Assembly: GCF_010907035.1 (NCBI RefSeq)
Contig: NZ_QUMK01000065.1
Location: forward strand, 1 to 33,445
DNA from: Rhodopseudomonas sp. BR0M22
Lineage (GTDB): Bacteria > Pseudomonadota > Alphaproteobacteria > Rhizobiales > Xanthobacteraceae
DNA: 33,445 nucleotides
Reading direction: 5' to 3'
A program made the position numbers and the translations under genes. Below are positions 13,715-21,272 of this stretch, piece by piece. Below the pieces are notes generated by a model. It was not told where the DNA came from, made no database searches, and saw only the letters and a program-made list of their open reading frames with translations. How positions within the stretch are numbered: position 1 is the first letter of the stretch; every line of letters starts with the position of its first letter.

Positions 13715-15343
13715 CTAACGTCGCGCCGCATGCGCGCCGTTGCCATTGCCGTTCTCATCAAGCGCGCGGCGCAGGCGGCGAATGATCACGCTGCGCGCGC
13801 GCTCGTCAGCCGCGGCTTCGACGCTGGCGTTGATATCGAGCAGCAGCTTCGACATCTCGTTGTGCCAGTCGAGCTTGACCACTGATTCGGGCTCGAGCCG
13901 TCGGCGATGCTTGCCGTCGAGCGCGGTCGGAACCGGCGTGGTGAGTTCGTAGACGTCGTCGAGCAGGGGCTGAAAGATTTTCGCGGCCGGCAGCACGCCG
14001 CCGCCGAGTCGCTCCGCCAGTGCGGCGATCGCGGTTTCCTCGCCATGCGCGAGAAACAGCCCGCGATCGATCGGCCGCCTCTCGGTGATCCATCGCGTCA
14101 GCTCGTCGGCATCGGCATGGCCGGAGTAATCGTCGATGCGGCGGATCTTGGCTTTGACGCGGACTTCCTCGCCCATGATCCGCACCGCCTTGGCGCCTTC
14201 TTCGAGGAAGCGGCCGAGCGTGCCGTTCGCCTGATAGCCGACCAGCAGCACGGTGCCGGTGGAGCGGCACAGCCAGCGCTTGAGATGATGGCGGATGCGG
14301 CCAGCGTCGCACATGCCGCTGGCGGCGATGATGATGTGGAAGCCGCTGAGCTTGGCGATCGACTTGCTCTCTTCCACCGTCTCGGTGAAGCGCAGATGCG
14401 GCGAGGCCAGCAGCCGCTCGACATCGACGTCTTCGTCGAGATCGGCGGCGTGGCGGCGGAACACTTCGGTGGCGCGGATCGCCAGCGGCGAATCCAGGAA
14501 GATCGGCGCGCTCGGGATCGTTCCCTTTTCCATCAGGTCGATCAGATCGACGATCAGCTCCTGGGTGCGCTCGACCGCGAATGCCGGAATCACCAGCGCG
14601 CCGCGCGCCGCCGCGGCGGCGTTGACTTCGGCAGCCAGGCGCTCGTGGCGGAGCTTCGGCGAGGTCGGCTCGCGCACGCGGTCGCCATAGGTCGACTCGC
14701 AGATCACGTAGTCGAAATGTGCCGGCGCTTCCGGATCGGGCTGCAGCAGCTTGCCGTCGGGGCCGATGTCGCCGGAGGCGAGCAGCCGCAGCGCCGAGGA
14801 TGAGCGGCCCTCGCCGTCGATCTCGATTTCGATCGAGGCAGAGCCGAGCAGGTGTCCGGCGTTCCAGAACCGCGCGCGCACACCGGGGAGGACGTTGACC
14901 CAGCTCTGGTAATCGACCGGATAGAACGACGACAGCGTCGCGATCGCGTCGGCCTGGGTGTAGATCGGGCTGACCTCCGGTCGCCCCCGCGCGGCGTTGC
15001 GGCGGTTCAGCATCATCACTTCGGACTCCTGGATGCTGCCGGCGTCGGGCAGCATGTAGGAGCACAGATCGATGGTGCCGCGGGTCGCCAGGATTCGTCC
15101 CTTGAATCCCTCGCGCACCAGCTTCGGCAGCAGGCCGCAGTGATCGATATGGGCGTGCGTCAGCAGCACCGCGTCGATCTCCGACGGGCGGAACGGAAAC
15201 GCGCCGTAGTTCAGCTCCTTCAGCGTCTTGTGGCCCTGGAACAGGCCGCAATCGACCAGGAAGCGTTTGCCATTGGTCTCGAACAGATAGCAGGAGCCGG
15301 TGACGGTGCGCGCAGCGCCGCAGAATCGGATGGTGACGCTCAT
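13715..15343 (-). CDS. Metallo-beta-lactamase/beta-CASP RNA-processing exonuclease
   Basis: A 542-residue two-zinc hydrolase of the RNA-specific beta-CASP class (CPSF73/Ysh1-like bacterial branch). The zinc motif is T-H63-A-H65-I-D67-H68-CG; a further histidine lies in the WNAGHLLGS motif near 160. The beta-CASP insert includes CESTYGDR and the ASGMCDAGRIRHHL motif. The final zinc-binding histidine is in YSGHADADELTRW, near residue 400. Predicted to degrade or process RNA to nucleotides. Its ATG overlaps the stop of the upstream PRPP-synthetase-like gene (ATGA, 15340-15343), so it is the third gene of a coupled operon. Confidence 0.85.
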   Translation of the reverse strand: MSVTIRFCGAARTVTGSCYLFETNGKRFLVDCGLFQGHKTLKELNYGAFPFRPSEIDAVLLTHAHIDHCGLLPKLVREGFKGRILATRGTIDLCSYMLPDAGSIQESEVMMLNRRNAARGRPEVSPIYTQADAIATLSSFYPVDYQSWVNVLPGVRARFWNAGHLLGSASIEIEIDGEGRSSSALRLLASGDIGPDGKLLQPDPEAPAHFDYVICESTYGDRVREPTSPKLRHERLAAEVNAAAAARGALVIPAFAVERTQELIVDLIDLMEKGTIPSAPIFLDSPLAIRATEVFRRHAADLDEDVDVERLLASPHLRFTETVEESKSIAKLSGFHIIIAASGMCDAGRIRHHLKRWLCRSTGTVLLVGYQANGTLGRFLEEGAKAVRIMGEEVRVKAKIRRIDDYSGHADADELTRWITERRPIDRGLFLAHGEETAIAALAERLGGGVLPAAKIFQPLLDDVYELTTPVPTALDGKHRRRLEPESVVKLDWHNEMSKLLLDINASVEAAADERARSVIIRRLRRALDENGNGNGAHAARR

Positions 15344-16251
15344 GCGCGGGTTTCCTGATTGGGCGTGCCGATCTCGGCGCGCAGTGCCTCGACGAACAGA
15401 TCGTCGAGCGTGATCGCGTTGGTCGGGTGCGGCACGGTGTGGGTGGAGCGGATGGTGCGGATGCCGGCGGCGGTGAAGTCGCGCAGCATCGCCGGGGGAA
15501 ACAGCGCGTGGGTGATCACCGCGTCGACAGACGTTGCGCCGGCGCCGAGCAGCGCGCGCGTGCAGGCGATCAGCGTGCCACCGGAGGAGACGATATCGTC
15601 GACCAGCAGCGCCGGCTGACCCGCGACCGTGCTTGCATCAGGGAACGCGATCTCGACCGATCGGTCGCCGTGCCGGATCTTCTGCGCCACCGCGGATCGT
15701 GTGCCGATCAGTTTGGCGAGCGCATCGACCCATTGCTGGGATTCGGAATCCGGTCCGACCACCACGGTGTCAGGATCGAGTGTGCCGCGCAGCGCCGCGG
15801 CGATCGTCGGCATCGCCGACAGCTCGTCCGCTGCGATGCCGGGGAAGACGTCGCCGAGCCGTGGTGTCCGATGCAGATGCGGATCGACGGTGATGACCCG
15901 GTCGACCAGCCCTGCCAGCAGCCGGCCCATCGCCTTCTGGCTGATCGCATCGCCGGGGTGAAATGCCACGTCCTGGCGCATGTAGCAGAGATACGGCGCC
16001 AGCAGCACCAGGCGTTTGCAGCCTTCGCGGCGCAGCGCTTCGGCGGCGAACAGGATGGTCACCAGCTTATCGTTGGGCTGATCGAGCGGCAGATACAGGA
16101 TCGTGGTCGCGGCTGTGGGGCCGACATTGACGGCGATCTCGCCGTCCGGAAAGCGGTGCTGCGTGATGAGATGCGCCGGCACGCCGAGCCGCGCCGCGAG
16201 CCGAATGGCATCGTCCGCCGCCGAGTCCAGATAGCACAGCGCGACGCTCAC
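15340..16251 (-). CDS. prs: Ribose-phosphate pyrophosphokinase-like protein
   Basis: A 303-residue PRPP-synthetase homologue, normally ribose 5-phosphate + ATP to PRPP + AMP. Seen motifs: FPDGE (34-38), the ATP-site block YMRQD (90-94), VDPHLH (122-127) equivalent to the metal-binding VDLHA, the catalytic-loop pair K191-x-R193 (AQKIRHGD), and the PRPP loop [10 protein letters not shown] (217-226). The catalytic residues look intact, but the loop and the short length resemble the archaeal-type enzymes more than the housekeeping bacterial Prs of about 315 residues. It starts with GTG 16251, overlapping the phosphorylase stop by four bases (GTGA). It is probably a second, pathway-specific enzyme beside a housekeeping Prs elsewhere. 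Confidence 0.8.
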
Positions 16252-17792
16252 GATACCAGGTCCACGTCGGCCGGGGTGTGGTGGTTGATCGCGAAGCCGG
16301 ACTCCGCCTGGGCGGCGGCCAGCGCCAGATCGAATTCGGCGCGGTCGGACGCATACACCCGATACAGCGGCTCGCCCTTTTCGACGCGGTCGCCGATCTT
16401 CTTGAACAGATCGATGCCGGCGCCCTTGGCGACCGGCGCGCCGGCGCTGCGGGCGAGGCGGTTGATGCGCAGACAGTCGATGCCGTTGACCACGCCATCG
16501 GCGGCCGCCAGCACATCGGCCGCGTAGCTGCCGAGCTCGGCCGGACACGGCGACGGCCCCTGTGCGTCGATGATCTGCTGCATCTTTTTCAGCGCAGCGC
16601 CGCTGTCGAGTAACTCCTTGGCGCGGGCATAGCCGGCGCCGCCGCGTAGCTTTGGATCGTATTCCAAGAGATGCGCGGCGAGCCGCAGCGATTTCTCGCG
16701 CAAGTCAGCCGGGGCACCGGGCTCGTTGCCGAGCACGGCCATCACGTCGCGGGCTTCCAGCACCGGGCCGATGCCGCGGCCGATCGGCTGGCGGCCGTCG
16801 GTGGTGACGACTTCGACGCCGATGCCGAAGTGATCGCCGACGAATTCGAACAGCTTACGCAGCCGCATCGCCTCGTTGGCGTTGGCAACCTTGGCGGAGG
16901 GGCCGACCGGGAAGTCGATCAGCAATCGGGTCGAGCCGGCGGCGAGCTTCTTCGACATGATCGAGGCGACCATCTGCTCCGGTGTGTCGAGGCTGAGGGG
17001 GCGTTCGACCGAGATCAGGATGTCGTCGGCGGGCGACAGGTTGACGTGGCCGCCCCACACAAGGCAGCCGCCGCAGGCGTGCACCACCTGTTTCATCTGC
17101 TCGACGTCGAGATCGACCCGCGCCAGCAGTTCCATGGTGTCGGCGGTGCCGGCCGGCGAGGTGATGGCGCGCGACGAAGTCTTCGGGATCATCAGTCCGT
17201 GCGCGGCGACGATCGGCACCACGATCATGGTGGTGCGGTTGCCGGGAATGCCGCCGATGCAGTGCTTGTCGACGACGATCGGATTGTCCCATTTCAGCTT
17301 CGTGCCGACCGACGCCATCGCGCCGACCAGCGCCAGCAGCTCGTCGGTCGAGGTGAAGCGCGCGGCGCTGATCAGGAACGCGGCGATCTCCATGTCGGAG
17401 TAACGGAAGTGCGCGAGGTCGTCGACGATCGCGGTGATCTCGGCGGCCGACAGCGTGTGGCCCTGGATCTTGGCGCGCACCGCATCGAGGCTGGCGGGCG
17501 ACCGCGCCGGCGTCACCGTCACCGCACTGCCGACCGGCTCGTTGAAGCGGCGGAACGCCGGCTCGGACAGGCCGAGTTCGTCGGGGCCGATCATCGCGTC
17601 GTCGTCGGTGATCATCAGCGTCGCCAGCAGCACCTTGCCGTTGATGCGCAGTTCGACACGGCTGAAGCCGCGAAACACATCCGGGCGCAGGGCGCGCGAG
17701 CGGCGGGAGATCACCGCGACGTTTTCGCGGCCGGTGTCGAGGCTGATCCGCCGAATCGTCAGCGGCGGGCGGGTGAGATCGGGAGCATTCAA
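16248..17792 (-). CDS. AMP phosphorylase / archaeal-type thymidine phosphorylase family
   Basis: A 514-residue enzyme with an N-terminal extension domain of about 80 residues before the phosphorylase core. Bacterial DeoA lacks this extension, but archaeal AMP phosphorylases of about 500 residues have it. The core carries [16 protein letters not shown] and [18 protein letters not shown], which match the archaeal family; E. coli DeoA has a clearly different version. Also present: [20 protein letters not shown] and [20 protein letters not shown]. Archaeal members phosphorolyse nucleoside 5'-monophosphates to base + ribose 1,5-bisphosphate. It is first in an overlapping operon with a PRPP-synthetase homologue and an RNase. 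Specificity for AMP or NMP versus thymidine is inferred from motifs, not proved. Confidence 0.85.
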
Positions 17793-17941
17793 GATAGCGC
17801 AACTCCGCGCATCGGCCGGGCGGCCTTCAGGAGCGCGTGGCGAAGCAGCGGGCTCCGGGACGCGCGATGGCCGAGGCTAGAAGTTCGGCGCGCGGGGCCA
17901 TTTGATGCGTGTCAATGTCGTGCGCGGCTCTGGGTCGCGGT

Positions 17942-18823
17942 TCAGATCCCTGCCGCCGCCACGACGCGGTCCAACTTGTCTCGCAGCCGCGCGAGCGGTG
18001 CAGCCGGCTCACGCACCAGGCGGAAGCCGAGATGGATCGGCGGCAGTCCGGCCGAGCAGCCGCCAGCCTTGGCGTCGCGGATGAAATCGGAGACGTAGGC
18101 GCGGTGCAGCCCTTCGGCGATCCGCACGCCGCAATTGGCGGTCTGTGCCTGAGGCCGGCCGGCGGCGTCGATCGCGGTGCGGTCGAAACAGGTCGCGGTC
18201 CACTCCCAGACATTGCCGGACAGGTCGAGCAGGCCGCGCTCGTTGGCGCCGAAACCGCCGAAGCTGCGCAAAGTGCTCGACAGATCGTCACGATCGGATT
18301 CGCGCTCGTAGCGCGCGATCCATCGCACCGACGGATCGTCGCTGTCCGACGCGAGCCCGTCGTCCTTGAACCTGCTGCCGGCCGCAAACGCCCATTCGGC
18401 GTCGGTCGGCAACCGATAGCGCGTGCCGGTCTTGCGCGACAGCCAGTCGGCGTAACCGGTCGCGTCCTGCCACGACACGCGGACAGCCGGACGATCGGCG
18501 CGGATCGCGGTGTCGGAAGCCATCGGATGGCAGGCGCCATCGTCGACGCAGAGTTGGTAATCCGCCGCGCTGACCTGGTGCAGCATGATCGATATCGGCG
18601 CATCGAACCGCAATTCGATCCGTGGCGCTTCGATCTGTCGCCCGTCGCGGGTGAATTCGCCGGGTAGCCGGTATTGCATTGAGCCGGGCGCAACGACGGT
18701 GATCGCCTGCCGGGCTTCGAACGCCGGATCGCCGCTCCCGAGCATCAGCGGCACGGCCATGAACGGCGTGACGAAGCCTGCGAGAGCGGCGAGAGCGACC
18801 TTGGCTTTGAAGGCGAGCGGCAT
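17942..18823 (-). CDS. nirV: NirV-like formylglycine-generating-enzyme-family protein
   Basis: A 293-residue protein with an N-terminal signal/anchor (about 8-30) and a SUMF1/FGE-sulfatase domain: VSAADYQLCVDDGACHP, PAVRVSWQDATGYADWLSRKTGTRYRLPTDAEWAFAA, LLDLSGNVWEWT and the terminal GFRLVRE. FGE-fold proteins of this kind encoded beside nirK are called NirV. Their exact role in copper nitrite reductase maturation is unsettled. It follows nirK on the same strand after 185 bases that contain a palindromic repeat, so co-transcription is possible but the repeat may trim or separate the messages. ATG 18823 gives the signal peptide; longer in-frame extension is not supported. Confidence 0.8.
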   Translation of the reverse strand: MPLAFKAKVALAALAGFVTPFMAVPLMLGSGDPAFEARQAITVVAPGSMQYRLPGEFTRDGRQIEAPRIELRFDAPISIMLHQVSAADYQLCVDDGACHPMASDTAIRADRPAVRVSWQDATGYADWLSRKTGTRYRLPTDAEWAFAAGSRFKDDGLASDSDDPSVRWIARYERESDRDDLSSTLRSFGGFGANERGLLDLSGNVWEWTATCFDRTAIDAAGRPQAQTANCGVRIAEGLHRAYVSDFIRDAKAGGCSAGLPPIHLGFRLVREPAAPLARLRDKLDRVVAAAGI

Positions 18824-18873
18824 GGGAGTTCGGCCGGTTTGACGGGGCAGCTCATTGGTCGATGACCTCACCT

Positions 18874-18953
18874 CGTCATTGCGAGCGAAGCGACGCAATC
18901 CAGCTCCGAACGTTGGACTGGATTGCTTCGTCGCTTCGCTCCTCGCAATGACG
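18874..18953. repeat. Interspersed palindromic repeat, class B
   Basis: Imperfect inverted repeat of about 80 bases: the left arm begins CGTCATTGCGAGCGAAGCG and ends CAATCCAG; the right arm (18918-18953) begins CTGGATTG and ends CTCGCAATGACG. The spacer is about 14 bases. The arms pair almost throughout, so the transcript would form a long hairpin. I recall this element as very frequent between genes in Bradyrhizobium and Rhodopseudomonas. Here it separates nirK from nirV. Confidence 0.85.
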
Positions 18954-19008
18954 GGGAAGAGGGGGCTCACAAACGTGAGCCTCGGAAGGCAGATTATTAG
19001 TTCGTCGA

Positions 19009-20127
19009 TCAACCCGGGATCGGGCCGGGCGCACTGACCTGCTTCATCAGATCGTCGTTCCACTTGCCGTCGACCTTGAAGTGCGCGGTGGCACCGAGCT
19101 CGATCGCTTCGATCAGGTTGTGGTTGAGATAGGCGTACACGCCCGGCTGCTTGAAGGTGTAGAGCGCAGCACCGGCCGAACCGCCGCGAATGAACCAGGT
19201 TTCCAGATTGTTCTCCGGCGGATTGGCGAATTTGCCGGTCTCCCAGACGTAGTCGCCGTGGCCACCGATCAGGTGCGGGCGGGTGTCGCGGTTGGCCTGT
19301 GAGTGCACGATCAGCACGGTCTCGCCGACCTTGGCTGGCATCGCGTTCTTGCCGGTCAGCGCGCCCACCTTGCCGTTGAACACCACATGGGTCGGGATCA
19401 GCTTGCGCATCACTTCGGCGGTGTCGACGTAGGATTCAGCCGGCGACGCATAGGCCTTGTATTTGCCGTTCTGGTCCTTCGGCACGTACATGTCCTGCTC
19501 GCCGATGTAGTAGACCCGGTCGTAGTGCAGCGGCTTGCCGCTGCGATCCTTCAGACCGTCACGCGGCAGCACCATGATGGCGCCGTTCATGCCGGAGACG
19601 ACGTGCCACGGGATCATGTTGCCGCCCGGAGCGCAGTGATACACGAACACGCCGGAGCGATCGGCCTTGAAGCGCAGCACCACCTGTTCGCCGGGATTGA
19701 TCAGCGTCAGCGCGCCGCCGCCGAGGGCGCCGGTCGAGGCGTGGAAGTCGATGTTGTGCGGCATCGTGTTGCTGGCGGGATTGACCAGCGTCAGTTCGAC
19801 ATAGTCGCCCTCATGCACCACCATCAACGGTCCGGGCATCGAGCCGTTGAAGGTCATCGCCTGGAATTTGGTGCCGTCTTCGTCGATCACCACTTCTTTT
19901 TCCTGCACCACCATCTTGAATTCGACGACCTTGGGTCCATCCTTGGTGGCCTGCTGATGCGCGTGCACGAACGGCGGTGCAACCAGCTCGACCTTCTGAC
20001 GCGGCAGCTTGGAAATGTCCTCTTCGGCAGTGGGAGTGGCGGCGGCGGCGGATGTCGTGGTCGGTGCGGCGCTCATCATCAGTGCGGAAGCGGCGACGCT
20101 CAGCAGGGTGTCTCGGCGGGTCATCAT
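19009..20127 (-). CDS. nirK: Copper-containing nitrite reductase
   Basis: Periplasmic enzyme reducing nitrite to nitric oxide, the key step of denitrification; 372 residues, two cupredoxin domains, homotrimer in the family. A Tat signal peptide is visible ([19 protein letters not shown]). Type 1 copper ligands are H124, C165, H175 and M180; type 2 copper ligands are H129, H164 and H336. The catalytic pair is D127 and H285 (PHLIGGHGD). All are present, so the enzyme should be active. ATG 20127 has GAAGGA nine to fourteen bases upstream; a second ATG follows directly. A FNR/NNR-type dyad is centred about 76 bases upstream of the start. Confidence 0.95.
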
Positions 20128-20364: not shown

Positions 20365-20589
20365 ATGTCGATAGACCGCAGCTATGTAGTCGAGGACGTG
20401 ATGCGTCGCTGGCCGGCGACGATCCGGGTGTTCCTGGATTTCAGGCACGCCTGCGTCGGCTGTCCGATCGCGACGTTTCACACCATCGAGGATTCTTGCC
20501 GCGAGCATCGGACCGCCGAAGCGCCGTTTCTGGCGGCGCTGCGCGAGGCCGCGGCAAAGCCTCAGGAGGTCTTGTCGCCGGGCGGCTGA
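20365..20589 (+). CDS. DUF1858 (hybrid-cluster-associated redox disulfide) protein
   Basis: A 74-residue cytoplasmic protein, essentially one DUF1858 domain: VVEDVMRRWPATIRVFLDFRHACVGCPIATFHTIEDSCREH. The CVGC pair is the putative redox disulfide that gives the family its name. These small proteins commonly accompany denitrification and NO-response genes. ATG 20365 is chosen because GGAG lies six bases upstream; an in-frame ATG at 20353 is possible. It is divergent from nirK, with its own FNR/NNR box, and its end overlaps the convergent regulator gene by 28 bases. Confidence 0.8.
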   Translation: MSIDRSYVVEDVMRRWPATIRVFLDFRHACVGCPIATFHTIEDSCREHRTAEAPFLAALREAAAKPQEVLSPGG

Positions 20590-21272
20590 TCGGCCAGCAC
20601 CACGAGCTGGTGCGGCTCGCGCAATACGATCTTCTGGCGGCCACTCTCGATCAGGCCCTTCTGCTCCCAGCTCGACAACAGCCGGCTGACGGTATGCAGC
20701 GTCGAGCCGGTCATCTGTGCGATGTCCTGGCGGCTGATTGGAAAATCGATCTGCACCCCGCTCTCGACCTTGCGGCCACTCTGCTTGGCGAGCCGCAGCA
20801 GCGCGTGGGCGACGCGCTGTTCGACCTGCTGGGTCGACATTTCGATCACTCGGGAATGCGTCTCCTGCAACCGGTCGCCGACCGTGCGCAGCGTGTTGGC
20901 GGCAAGCGCGGGATATCGCTCGACGAGCCTGGGCCATGCCCCGGTCGGCCACGCCAGCACGATCGAGTCGTCGACCGCGGTCGCTGTCGCCGGGTAGCGG
21001 TTCAGACCGATTGCCGTGGCCACCCCGAAGGTTTCGCCTGGCGCAACATAGCGCACCACGATCTGCTCGCCGGCCGGCGTCACCTTGCTGGCGCGGACGT
21101 GACCGTGCAGCAGCACGAAGAACGAATGGGCATCCTCGCCCTGTTCGAACACATGGCCGTTCTTGGGAACCCGGATCGACCGCGCCTCCTGCAGCACGGC
21201 GTCGAGCTCCACCGGGCTCAGCCCCGCAAACAGCGGCAGTTTTGCAACCAGTGAAGTGTCGATCGTCGCCAT
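20562..21272 (-). CDS. nnrR: Crp/Fnr-family regulator, NnrR-like
   Basis: A 236-residue Crp/Fnr regulator: cyclic-nucleotide-like sensor domain about 10-125 (LFAGLSPVELDAVLQEARS ... GEQIVVRYVAPGETFGV), dimer helix about 130-155, and helix-turn-helix about 175-205 (ISRQDIAQMTGSTLHTVSRLLSSWEQKGLI). It lacks the N-terminal cysteine cluster of FNR, so it is not an oxygen-sensing iron-sulfur regulator of that type. Together with its place beside nirK this fits NnrR, the nitric-oxide-responsive activator, though other Fnr subgroups (DNR, NarR) cannot be excluded. The recognition helix region is compatible with TTG...CAA boxes, two of which lie in the neighbouring divergent promoter. Confidence 0.8.
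   Translation of the reverse strand: MATIDTSLVAKLPLFAGLSPVELDAVLQEARSIRVPKNGHVFEQGEDAHSFFVLLHGHVRASKVTPAGEQIVVRYVAPGETFGVATAIGLNRYPATATAVDDSIVLAWPTGAWPRLVERYPALAANTLRTVGDRLQETHSRVIEMSTQQVEQRVAHALLRLAKQSGRKVESGVQIDFPISRQDIAQMTGSTLHTVSRLLSSWEQKGLIESGRQKIVLREPHQLVVLADQPPGDKTS

Follow-up and report, generated by a model that had tools for sequence, protein, structure and literature searches.

A putative low-oxygen operon for nucleoside-5'-monophosphate salvage in Rhodopseudomonas sp. BR0M22 that joins an archaeal-type phosphorylase homologue, a PRPP-synthetase paralogue and a beta-CASP RNase homologue

A stretch of 33,445 nucleotides from Rhodopseudomonas sp. BR0M22 (contig NZ_QUMK01000065.1, the whole of which is called the window here) carries three adjoining genes that encode a homologue of the archaeal nucleoside-5'-monophosphate (NMP) phosphorylase (AMPP), a paralogue of phosphoribosyl pyrophosphate (PRPP) synthetase (PRS2), and a ribonuclease (RNase) homologue of the beta-CASP family. 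According to PMC9700705, the archaeal NMP phosphorylase converts AMP, CMP and UMP to ribose 1,5-bisphosphate (R15P). The locus therefore raises the question of what these proteins do together, and of where the R15P predicted to arise would go. The answer that we favour, and hold to be reasonably probable, is that the genes form a low-oxygen NMP salvage operon. A control of the FixK/FNR type would switch it on in microoxia; the RNase, judging from its family, would help to convert RNA to 5'-NMPs; AMPP would phosphorolyse these to the free base and R15P, as the residues that it has in common with the archaeal enzyme suggest; and PRS2, an additional PRS observed in no genome without AMPP, would handle the sugar phosphate, which would be returned at the level of PRPP, or ribose 5-phosphate (R5P), and not of ribulose 1,5-bisphosphate (RuBP). 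In the genome of the window (G000; 5.29 Mb, completeness 99.99%) PhnN would provide an additional, known route from R15P to PRPP. The features of the operon are the following:

16248..17792, minus strand: AMPP, archaeal-type NMP phosphorylase homologue (514 aa, TTG start; from profiles, residues and solved match)
15340..16251, minus strand: PRS2, paralogue of PRPP synthetase, subfamily PRK07199 / NF005537 (303 aa, GTG start; from profiles, residues and tree)
13715..15343, minus strand: beta-CASP metallo-beta-lactamase RNase homologue, relative of TTHA0252 (542 aa, ATG start; from domains and metal ligands)
16248..16251, minus strand: GTGA start/stop overlap of AMPP and PRS2 (from the sequence)
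15340..15343, minus strand: ATGA start/stop overlap of PRS2 and the RNase gene (from the sequence)
17902..17915, unstranded: FixK/FNR-type palindrome upstream of AMPP, TTGACACGCATCAA in the orientation of the operon (from the pattern TTGAYNNNNRTCAA)

The order on the minus strand is AMPP, PRS2 and the RNase gene, and both junctions are 4-base overlaps, as a first-pass annotation of this DNA had described. The same annotation had assigned AMPP to the archaeal AMP-phosphorylase type and not to DeoA, and by its residues the protein is indeed of the archaeal NMP-phosphorylase type. Its top match among solved structures is 4ga5/4ga4, which we take to come from the archaeon Thermococcus kodakarensis; AMPP matches the NMP (AMP) phosphorylase of this archaeon over its full length, the N-terminal part included, and has the same set of residues. 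Seven archaeal-type residues (K204, S207, T211, S212, W246, P295 and K301) are present in 119/119 bacterial AMPPs and in the three archaeal sequences, and in none of the six DeoA-type sequences; this comparison covered 119 of the 120 loci described below, with the fusion L070 included and one AMPP with stops excluded. The closest AMPP among named relatives is that of Rhodopseudomonas sp. B29 (92%). Alternatively, the annotation could hold: AMPP would then be a plain thymidine or pyrimidine nucleoside phosphorylase, and the operon would serve nucleoside salvage. The database names agree with this, given that the models over whose cut-offs AMPP scores (NF003338, 706.4 bits with a cut-off of 434; TIGR02645, 695.1 bits with a cut-off of 434.6) are named 'putative thymidine phosphorylase', and S277, K281 and K282 are common to AMPP and the DeoA-type sequences. 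However, archaeal-type residues stand in place of the DeoA ones in all 119 sequences, and every DeoA/PyNP equivalog cut-off is missed (TIGR02643, 133.6 against 570.7 bits; NF004490, 191.5 against 269; NF004747, 142.9 against 559), and we consider a nucleoside phosphorylase improbable.

The arrangement was followed in 120 AMPP loci, namely the window, 39 loci (L032-L070) and 80 named ones (L072-L151); the fusion L071, with its best score to PhnN, was excluded from the synteny tally, and the fusion L070 (the same gene as L162) was tallied as AMPP alone. PRS2 adjoins AMPP on its downstream side in 106 of the loci, with an overlap of -1 or -4 in 59 of these pairs. A beta-CASP gene adjoins in 59/120 loci, in 40 of them after PRS2, in 13 upstream of AMPP and in six directly after AMPP. 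When the set was thinned to AMPPs with less than 70% identity, PRS2 remained a neighbour in 45/54 loci and the RNase in 31/54, so that the pairing of AMPP with PRS2 exceeds chance. The synteny is found well beyond one species. Clustering of the neighbours, dominated by shadow open reading frames, added little to the three genes.

The association of PRS2 with AMPP is also seen at the genome level. In a first sample of 299 Pseudomonadota genomes, AMPP was over the cut-off in 37, and two genomes below it, G206 (a fusion) and G210 (a broken AMPP), complete the 39 AMPP genomes of this sample. PRS2 was over its cut-off in 35 genomes and just below it (299.6 bits) in G231, the best score in any other genome of the sample being 167.6 bits. 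All 36 PRS2 genomes are among the 37 with AMPP over the cut-off (p 9e-46; the p values in this work are not corrected for relatedness). The co-occurrence p values were computed with 262 and 295 AMPP-negative genomes, which become 260 and 293 once G206 and G210 count as AMPP genomes, with the same conclusion. The sole genome with AMPP over the cut-off that lacks PRS2, G254, has AMPP fused to PhnN; G206 and G210 also lack PRS2. Together with a second sample of 73 AMPP genomes from further listings (all those not yet tested, plus G206), PRS2 is present in 82/111 AMPP genomes. PRS2 without AMPP was not seen in the 33 AMPP-negative genomes of the later listings, in the 293 overall or in 14 controls. 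In G210 the apparently broken AMPP (L161:7721-12509) gives a partial profile match and adjoins a beta-CASP gene; next come genes identified by eye as universal-stress-like, alcohol-dehydrogenase-like and FNR-like.

Two fates had been proposed for the sugar phosphate in the first-pass annotation, PRPP and RuBP, the latter for fixation by RuBisCO. An R15P isomerase (TIGR00511) was over the cut-off in none of the 39 AMPP genomes of the first sample. In the genome of the window, where an e2b2-type isomerase was looked for, the match is MtnA, with 411.7 bits on its own model; on that of the isomerase, whose cut-off is 314.1, it reaches 137.6. The RuBisCO family (PF00016, with RuBisCO-like proteins not separated) was over the cut-off in 19/39 AMPP genomes, that of the window included. 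Because no isomerase reaches the cut-off in the 39 genomes and the RuBisCO family occurs only in 19 of them, RuBP is not the general fate of R15P. The presence of RuBisCO-family genes in the genome of the window and the distant relationship of MtnA to R15P isomerase speak for isomerisation followed by CO2 fixation; against the missing isomerase and the just 19 genomes with the RuBisCO family, we regard this route as very improbable. The CO2-fixation branch of the earlier proposal is not supported, and the PRPP branch gains support from PhnN, both in the genome of the window and in fusions with AMPP.

PhnN, ribose 1,5-bisphosphate phosphokinase, belongs to a different family from PRS2 and uses the predicted product of AMPP. 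In the genome of the window it scores 186.9 bits (cut-off 156) and lies beside PhnM, outside the operon. Elsewhere it is fused to AMPP or adjoins it in nine loci. The fusions, in one frame, occur at seven loci from at least two classes (Alpha- and Betaproteobacteria), with nadC directly upstream in 7/7:

nadC and PhnN-AMPP fusion: L160:7425-10080, L162:7659-10681, L214:8402-11368, L215:6578-9320
nadC and PhnN-AMPP fusion, continued: L250:7136-10052, L251:7977-10918, L252:7140-10055

The fused AMPPs keep the seven archaeal-type residues (7/7) and form a divergent branch of AMPP, with N247, H252 and N260 (window numbering) in 7/7 at positions where other AMPPs mostly have G, L and I. Unfused PhnN genes adjoin AMPP divergently in G693 (L263:5956-8143) and G828 (L279:5169-7392). 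Since PhnN is fused to AMPP or adjoins it, a coupling of R15P to PRPP is likely in the AMPP family, though in a divergent branch. The gene content of the fusion loci suggests a scheme in which NadC would form nicotinate mononucleotide (NaMN) from quinolinate and PRPP, the AMPP branch would convert NaMN and phosphate to nicotinate and R15P, and PhnN would convert R15P to PRPP; this would amount to a decarboxylation of quinolinate with recycling of PRPP, a second use of AMPP beside nadC. TRAP transporter genes lie alongside the fusion at L214 (annotated), at L250 and, by eye, at L251.

PRS2 is distinct from the housekeeping Prs. It scores over the cut-offs of NF005537 (399.6 bits; 322) and TIGR01251 (173.1; 113) and under that of the housekeeping-Prs model NF002320 (117.7 against 297); its subfamily had already been modelled (PRK07199, NF005537) under the name ribose-phosphate diphosphokinase. 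A housekeeping Prs (at least 358 bits) is present besides PRS2 in 30/30 AMPP genomes checked. For comparison, 29 of these 30 Prs were aligned (L192 gave no sequence) and, after removal of the outlier L175, 28 were placed in the tree, where a single clade (support 1.0) holds the 106 PRS2; together with two archaeal PRS they are separated from the 28 bacterial housekeeping Prs (support 1.0). The top solved match of PRS2 is 1u9y, presumably from Methanocaldococcus jannaschii; we take both 1u9y and 4twb to be archaeal. The conserved catalytic residues of PRPP synthetases (RQD, H, PD, KxR, DD...T) are kept, each of F34, D36, E38, R92, Q93, D94, H125, D168, K191, R193, D218, D219 and T226 being found in at least 104/106 homologues; K191 (106/106) and R193 (105/106) are those that the first-pass annotation had pointed out. 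In addition, PRS2 has invariants of its own that adjoin the catalytic ones: H127 and R128 (106/106) after H125, E170 (106/106) and W174 (103/106) after D168, and D196 (105/106) after K191 and R193; they also set it apart from 1u9y, which falls on the PRS2 side of this split. Positions 130, 142 and 143 (window numbering), which we take to belong to the allosteric site of Prs, are invariant in 28/29 housekeeping Prs and are not retained in PRS2.

The third gene, which had been called a beta-CASP RNase from the start, encodes the domains Lactamase_B, Beta-Casp and RMMBL, and its top solved match is the RNase TTHA0252. Of the TTHA0252 residues that we take to be metal ligands, six are found in 57/57 operon RNase homologues and the seventh in 56/57. 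Domains and ligands are thus common to both proteins; the operon RNase differs in being encoded together with a putative NMP phosphorylase. A reading as the Cas14 of type VII CRISPR was rejected, the score on NF045584 being 345.8 against 800 bits, which reflects generic beta-CASP similarity only. A defence system was rejected as well: PADLOC gives zero matches for AMPP and the RNase and only 20-bit matches for PRS2. In the RNase tree, from which one of the 13 upstream RNases was excluded, 11 of the 12 upstream-placed proteins fall in a clade of their own (support 1.0) that contains none of the 45 downstream ones. Because upstream and downstream RNases are separated in this way, the tree suggests that an RNase was joined to the AMPP-PRS2 pair more than once.

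What would control the operon? The window contains a single exact match to TTGAYNNNNRTCAA, the palindrome at 17902-17915, and 9/100 shuffles have at least one. Allowing up to one mismatch, the box was found upstream of AMPP in 32/118 regions, whereas 200 random draws gave 6.0 +/- 2.4, with 18 as the largest value; L070 and one locus with too little upstream sequence were excluded from this count. It is present in 29/58 operons with an adjoining RNase and in 3/60 without one (p 2e-8, uncorrected for lineage). In Bradyrhizobium diazoefficiens 110spc4, the genes bll3117, bll3116 and bll3115 are among the 71 that the table rows of PMC6515984 give as raised both as RNA and as protein at 0.5% O2. 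The log2 fold changes there are 2.1, 4.4 and 2.9 and the fold changes 5.1, 7.7 and 15.4, which we read as protein and transcript values, respectively. The corresponding rows of PMC9104804 predict an operon bll3117-bll3116-bll3115, report lower values for bll3117 (-6.6) and bll3115 (-30.6) upon deletion of fixK2, and place a FixK2 box, ATGATCTGGGTCAA, at -74. We found ATGATCTGGGTCAA exactly, at -74, in loci L032 and L033. For the window, a FixK/FNR-type control is inferred from the box, and expression is known only from the like-named Bradyrhizobium operon. The phosphoketolase-acetate kinase pair bll2518-bll2517 appears in the same table (PMC9104804) and is a plausible user of pentose phosphate.

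Several observations weigh against an NMP salvage operon with PRS2 and the RNase as its parts. AMPP is under the cut-off of the AMP-phosphorylase equivalog TIGR03327 (489.2 against 535 bits), and the literature searched gave no activity measurement for AMPP, PRS2 or the RNase of any proteobacterium. No RNase gene adjoins AMPP in 61/120 loci, and the targets of the RNase might instead be specific transcripts. In the rows of PMC6515984, bll3117-bll3115 are absent from a stricter list of 62, carry no mark as direct targets of FixK2 and show no increase in bacteroids. PRS2 retains ordinary PRPP-synthetase residues, so it might simply make PRPP from R5P. Moreover, 29/111 AMPP genomes lack PRS2. A forecast written beforehand, that PRS2 is absent only in genomes with the PhnN fusion, failed in the second sample, where PRS2 is present in 46/73 genomes (44 over the cut-off, the other two scoring 302.6 and 315.5 bits) and absent in 27, of which only four are fusions and 23 are not. 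PhnN is over the cut-off in 14/29 AMPP genomes without PRS2 and in 16/82 with it (p 0.006); once the five fusion genomes are removed, the figures are 9/24 and 16/82, which is not significant (p 0.10). A strict alternation of PRS2 and PhnN was therefore rejected, given that both are present in those 16 PRS2 genomes and neither in 15/111 AMPP genomes; in the latter, R15P must therefore have another fate. Nine genomes that lack PRS2 retain AMPP beside the RNase, and six of these have PhnN. At nine other loci (L257, L260, L264, L265, L268, L270, L271, L276 and L277) AMPP has neither the RNase nor PRS2 alongside; the genomes they come from are small (1.4-2.2 Mb), belong to two families and have no PhnN either.

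Within the salvage operon that we favour, PRS2 could act in two ways. It could be a PRS-fold enzyme that acts on R15P, either converting R15P and ATP to PRPP and ADP, as PhnN does, or transferring the C1 phosphate to AMP (R15P + AMP to R5P + ADP). This is a possibility that we hold tentatively. It would explain the presence of PRS2 only together with AMPP (82/111 AMPP genomes against 0/293 others) in cells where a housekeeping Prs is already available; the invariants beside the catalytic residues agree with it, as does the R15P-to-PRPP coupling indicated by the PhnN-AMPP fusions of the same AMPP family. In the first sample, 27/39 AMPP genomes have neither isomerase nor PhnN over the cut-off, and all 27 have PRS2; where an AMPP-RNase pair occurs without PRS2, PhnN is present in 6/9 genomes, compared with 7/46 of those that have PRS2 in the second sample (p 0.003). 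To our knowledge, no enzyme of the PRS fold acts on R15P, and the ordinary catalytic residues, the genomes with neither or both of PRS2 and PhnN, and the failed forecast of a strict replacement by PhnN count against such an activity. PRS2 could equally be an ordinary, perhaps feedback-insensitive PRPP synthetase that uses R5P, supplying PRPP for salvage of the bases freed by AMPP, with AMPP removing the AMP made by PRS2. The intact catalytic set, the grouping with the two archaeal PRS and the loss of the housekeeping invariants at 130, 142 and 143 are in line with this; it leaves unexplained why PRS2 was never seen without AMPP, and why it has extra invariants. The two readings stand about level, neither reaching an even chance in our estimate. 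Should PRS2 consume R15P, it would represent a new activity in the PRPP-synthetase fold, and the operon a route for oxygen starvation from RNA to bases and usable sugar phosphate; in the AMP version of the reaction AMP would also be rescued as ADP.

Among known systems, the archaeal pentose bisphosphate pathway is among the closest. The present operon differs from it in that AMPP stays below the TIGR03327 cut-off, no isomerase is over the cut-off, and the gene lies in one operon with a PRS paralogue and an RNase gene. AMP phosphorylase has also been reported from other bacteria, most of them uncultured (PMC9700705, citing Wrighton 2016; PMC12542636 on WOR-3); there it occurs with R15P isomerase and RuBisCO, whereas here it is found with PRS2 and the RNase. 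In the published table rows the B. diazoefficiens genes are named thymidine phosphorylase family protein, ribose-phosphate pyrophosphokinase and MBL fold hydrolase, so that the likeness is one of gene names; these rows give expression and no functional proposal. Another strain filed as B. diazoefficiens (L100) has AMPP followed by the RNase with no PRS2 between them. Among the matches listed from CC-licensed PMC full text, judged mostly by titles and abstract openings, none beyond the Bradyrhizobium rows concerned proteobacterial AMPP-PRS operons or PhnN-AMPP fusions, and none dealt with NMP phosphorolysis to R15P in Proteobacteria, the genes being named thymidine phosphorylase and ribose-phosphate diphosphokinase there. 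In a Variovorax paper (PMC11452294) bug27 lies beside nadC and phnN and the word 'phosphorylase' does not occur; a Sphingopyxis paper (PMC7713065) has none of the terms looked for. Our verdict is that the operon is a variant of the archaeal NMP-to-R15P pathway, new in its PRS2 and RNase partners. It matters for its spread (AMPP in 37/299 Pseudomonadota genomes, the PRS paralogue in 82/111 of those with AMPP, an adjoining RNase in 59/120 loci), for giving the orphan PRK07199 subfamily a testable substrate in R15P, and for connecting a microoxia-induced operon to a function.

On the 5' side of the operon and on the same strand lie an FGE-sulfatase-domain gene (17942-19063), presumably NirV-like, a copper nitrite reductase gene (19009-20127) and, further upstream, a gene for a Crp/Fnr regulator (20562-21272). 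The three-gene set is also found on a plasmid: on a conjugative plasmid of Celeribacter (L219:8598-12384) an RNase-AMPP-PRS operon is placed among genes for cytochrome c, a multicopper oxidase and a copper ATPase, and AMPP has a match at E 1e-30 in 116/72,556 plasmid records.

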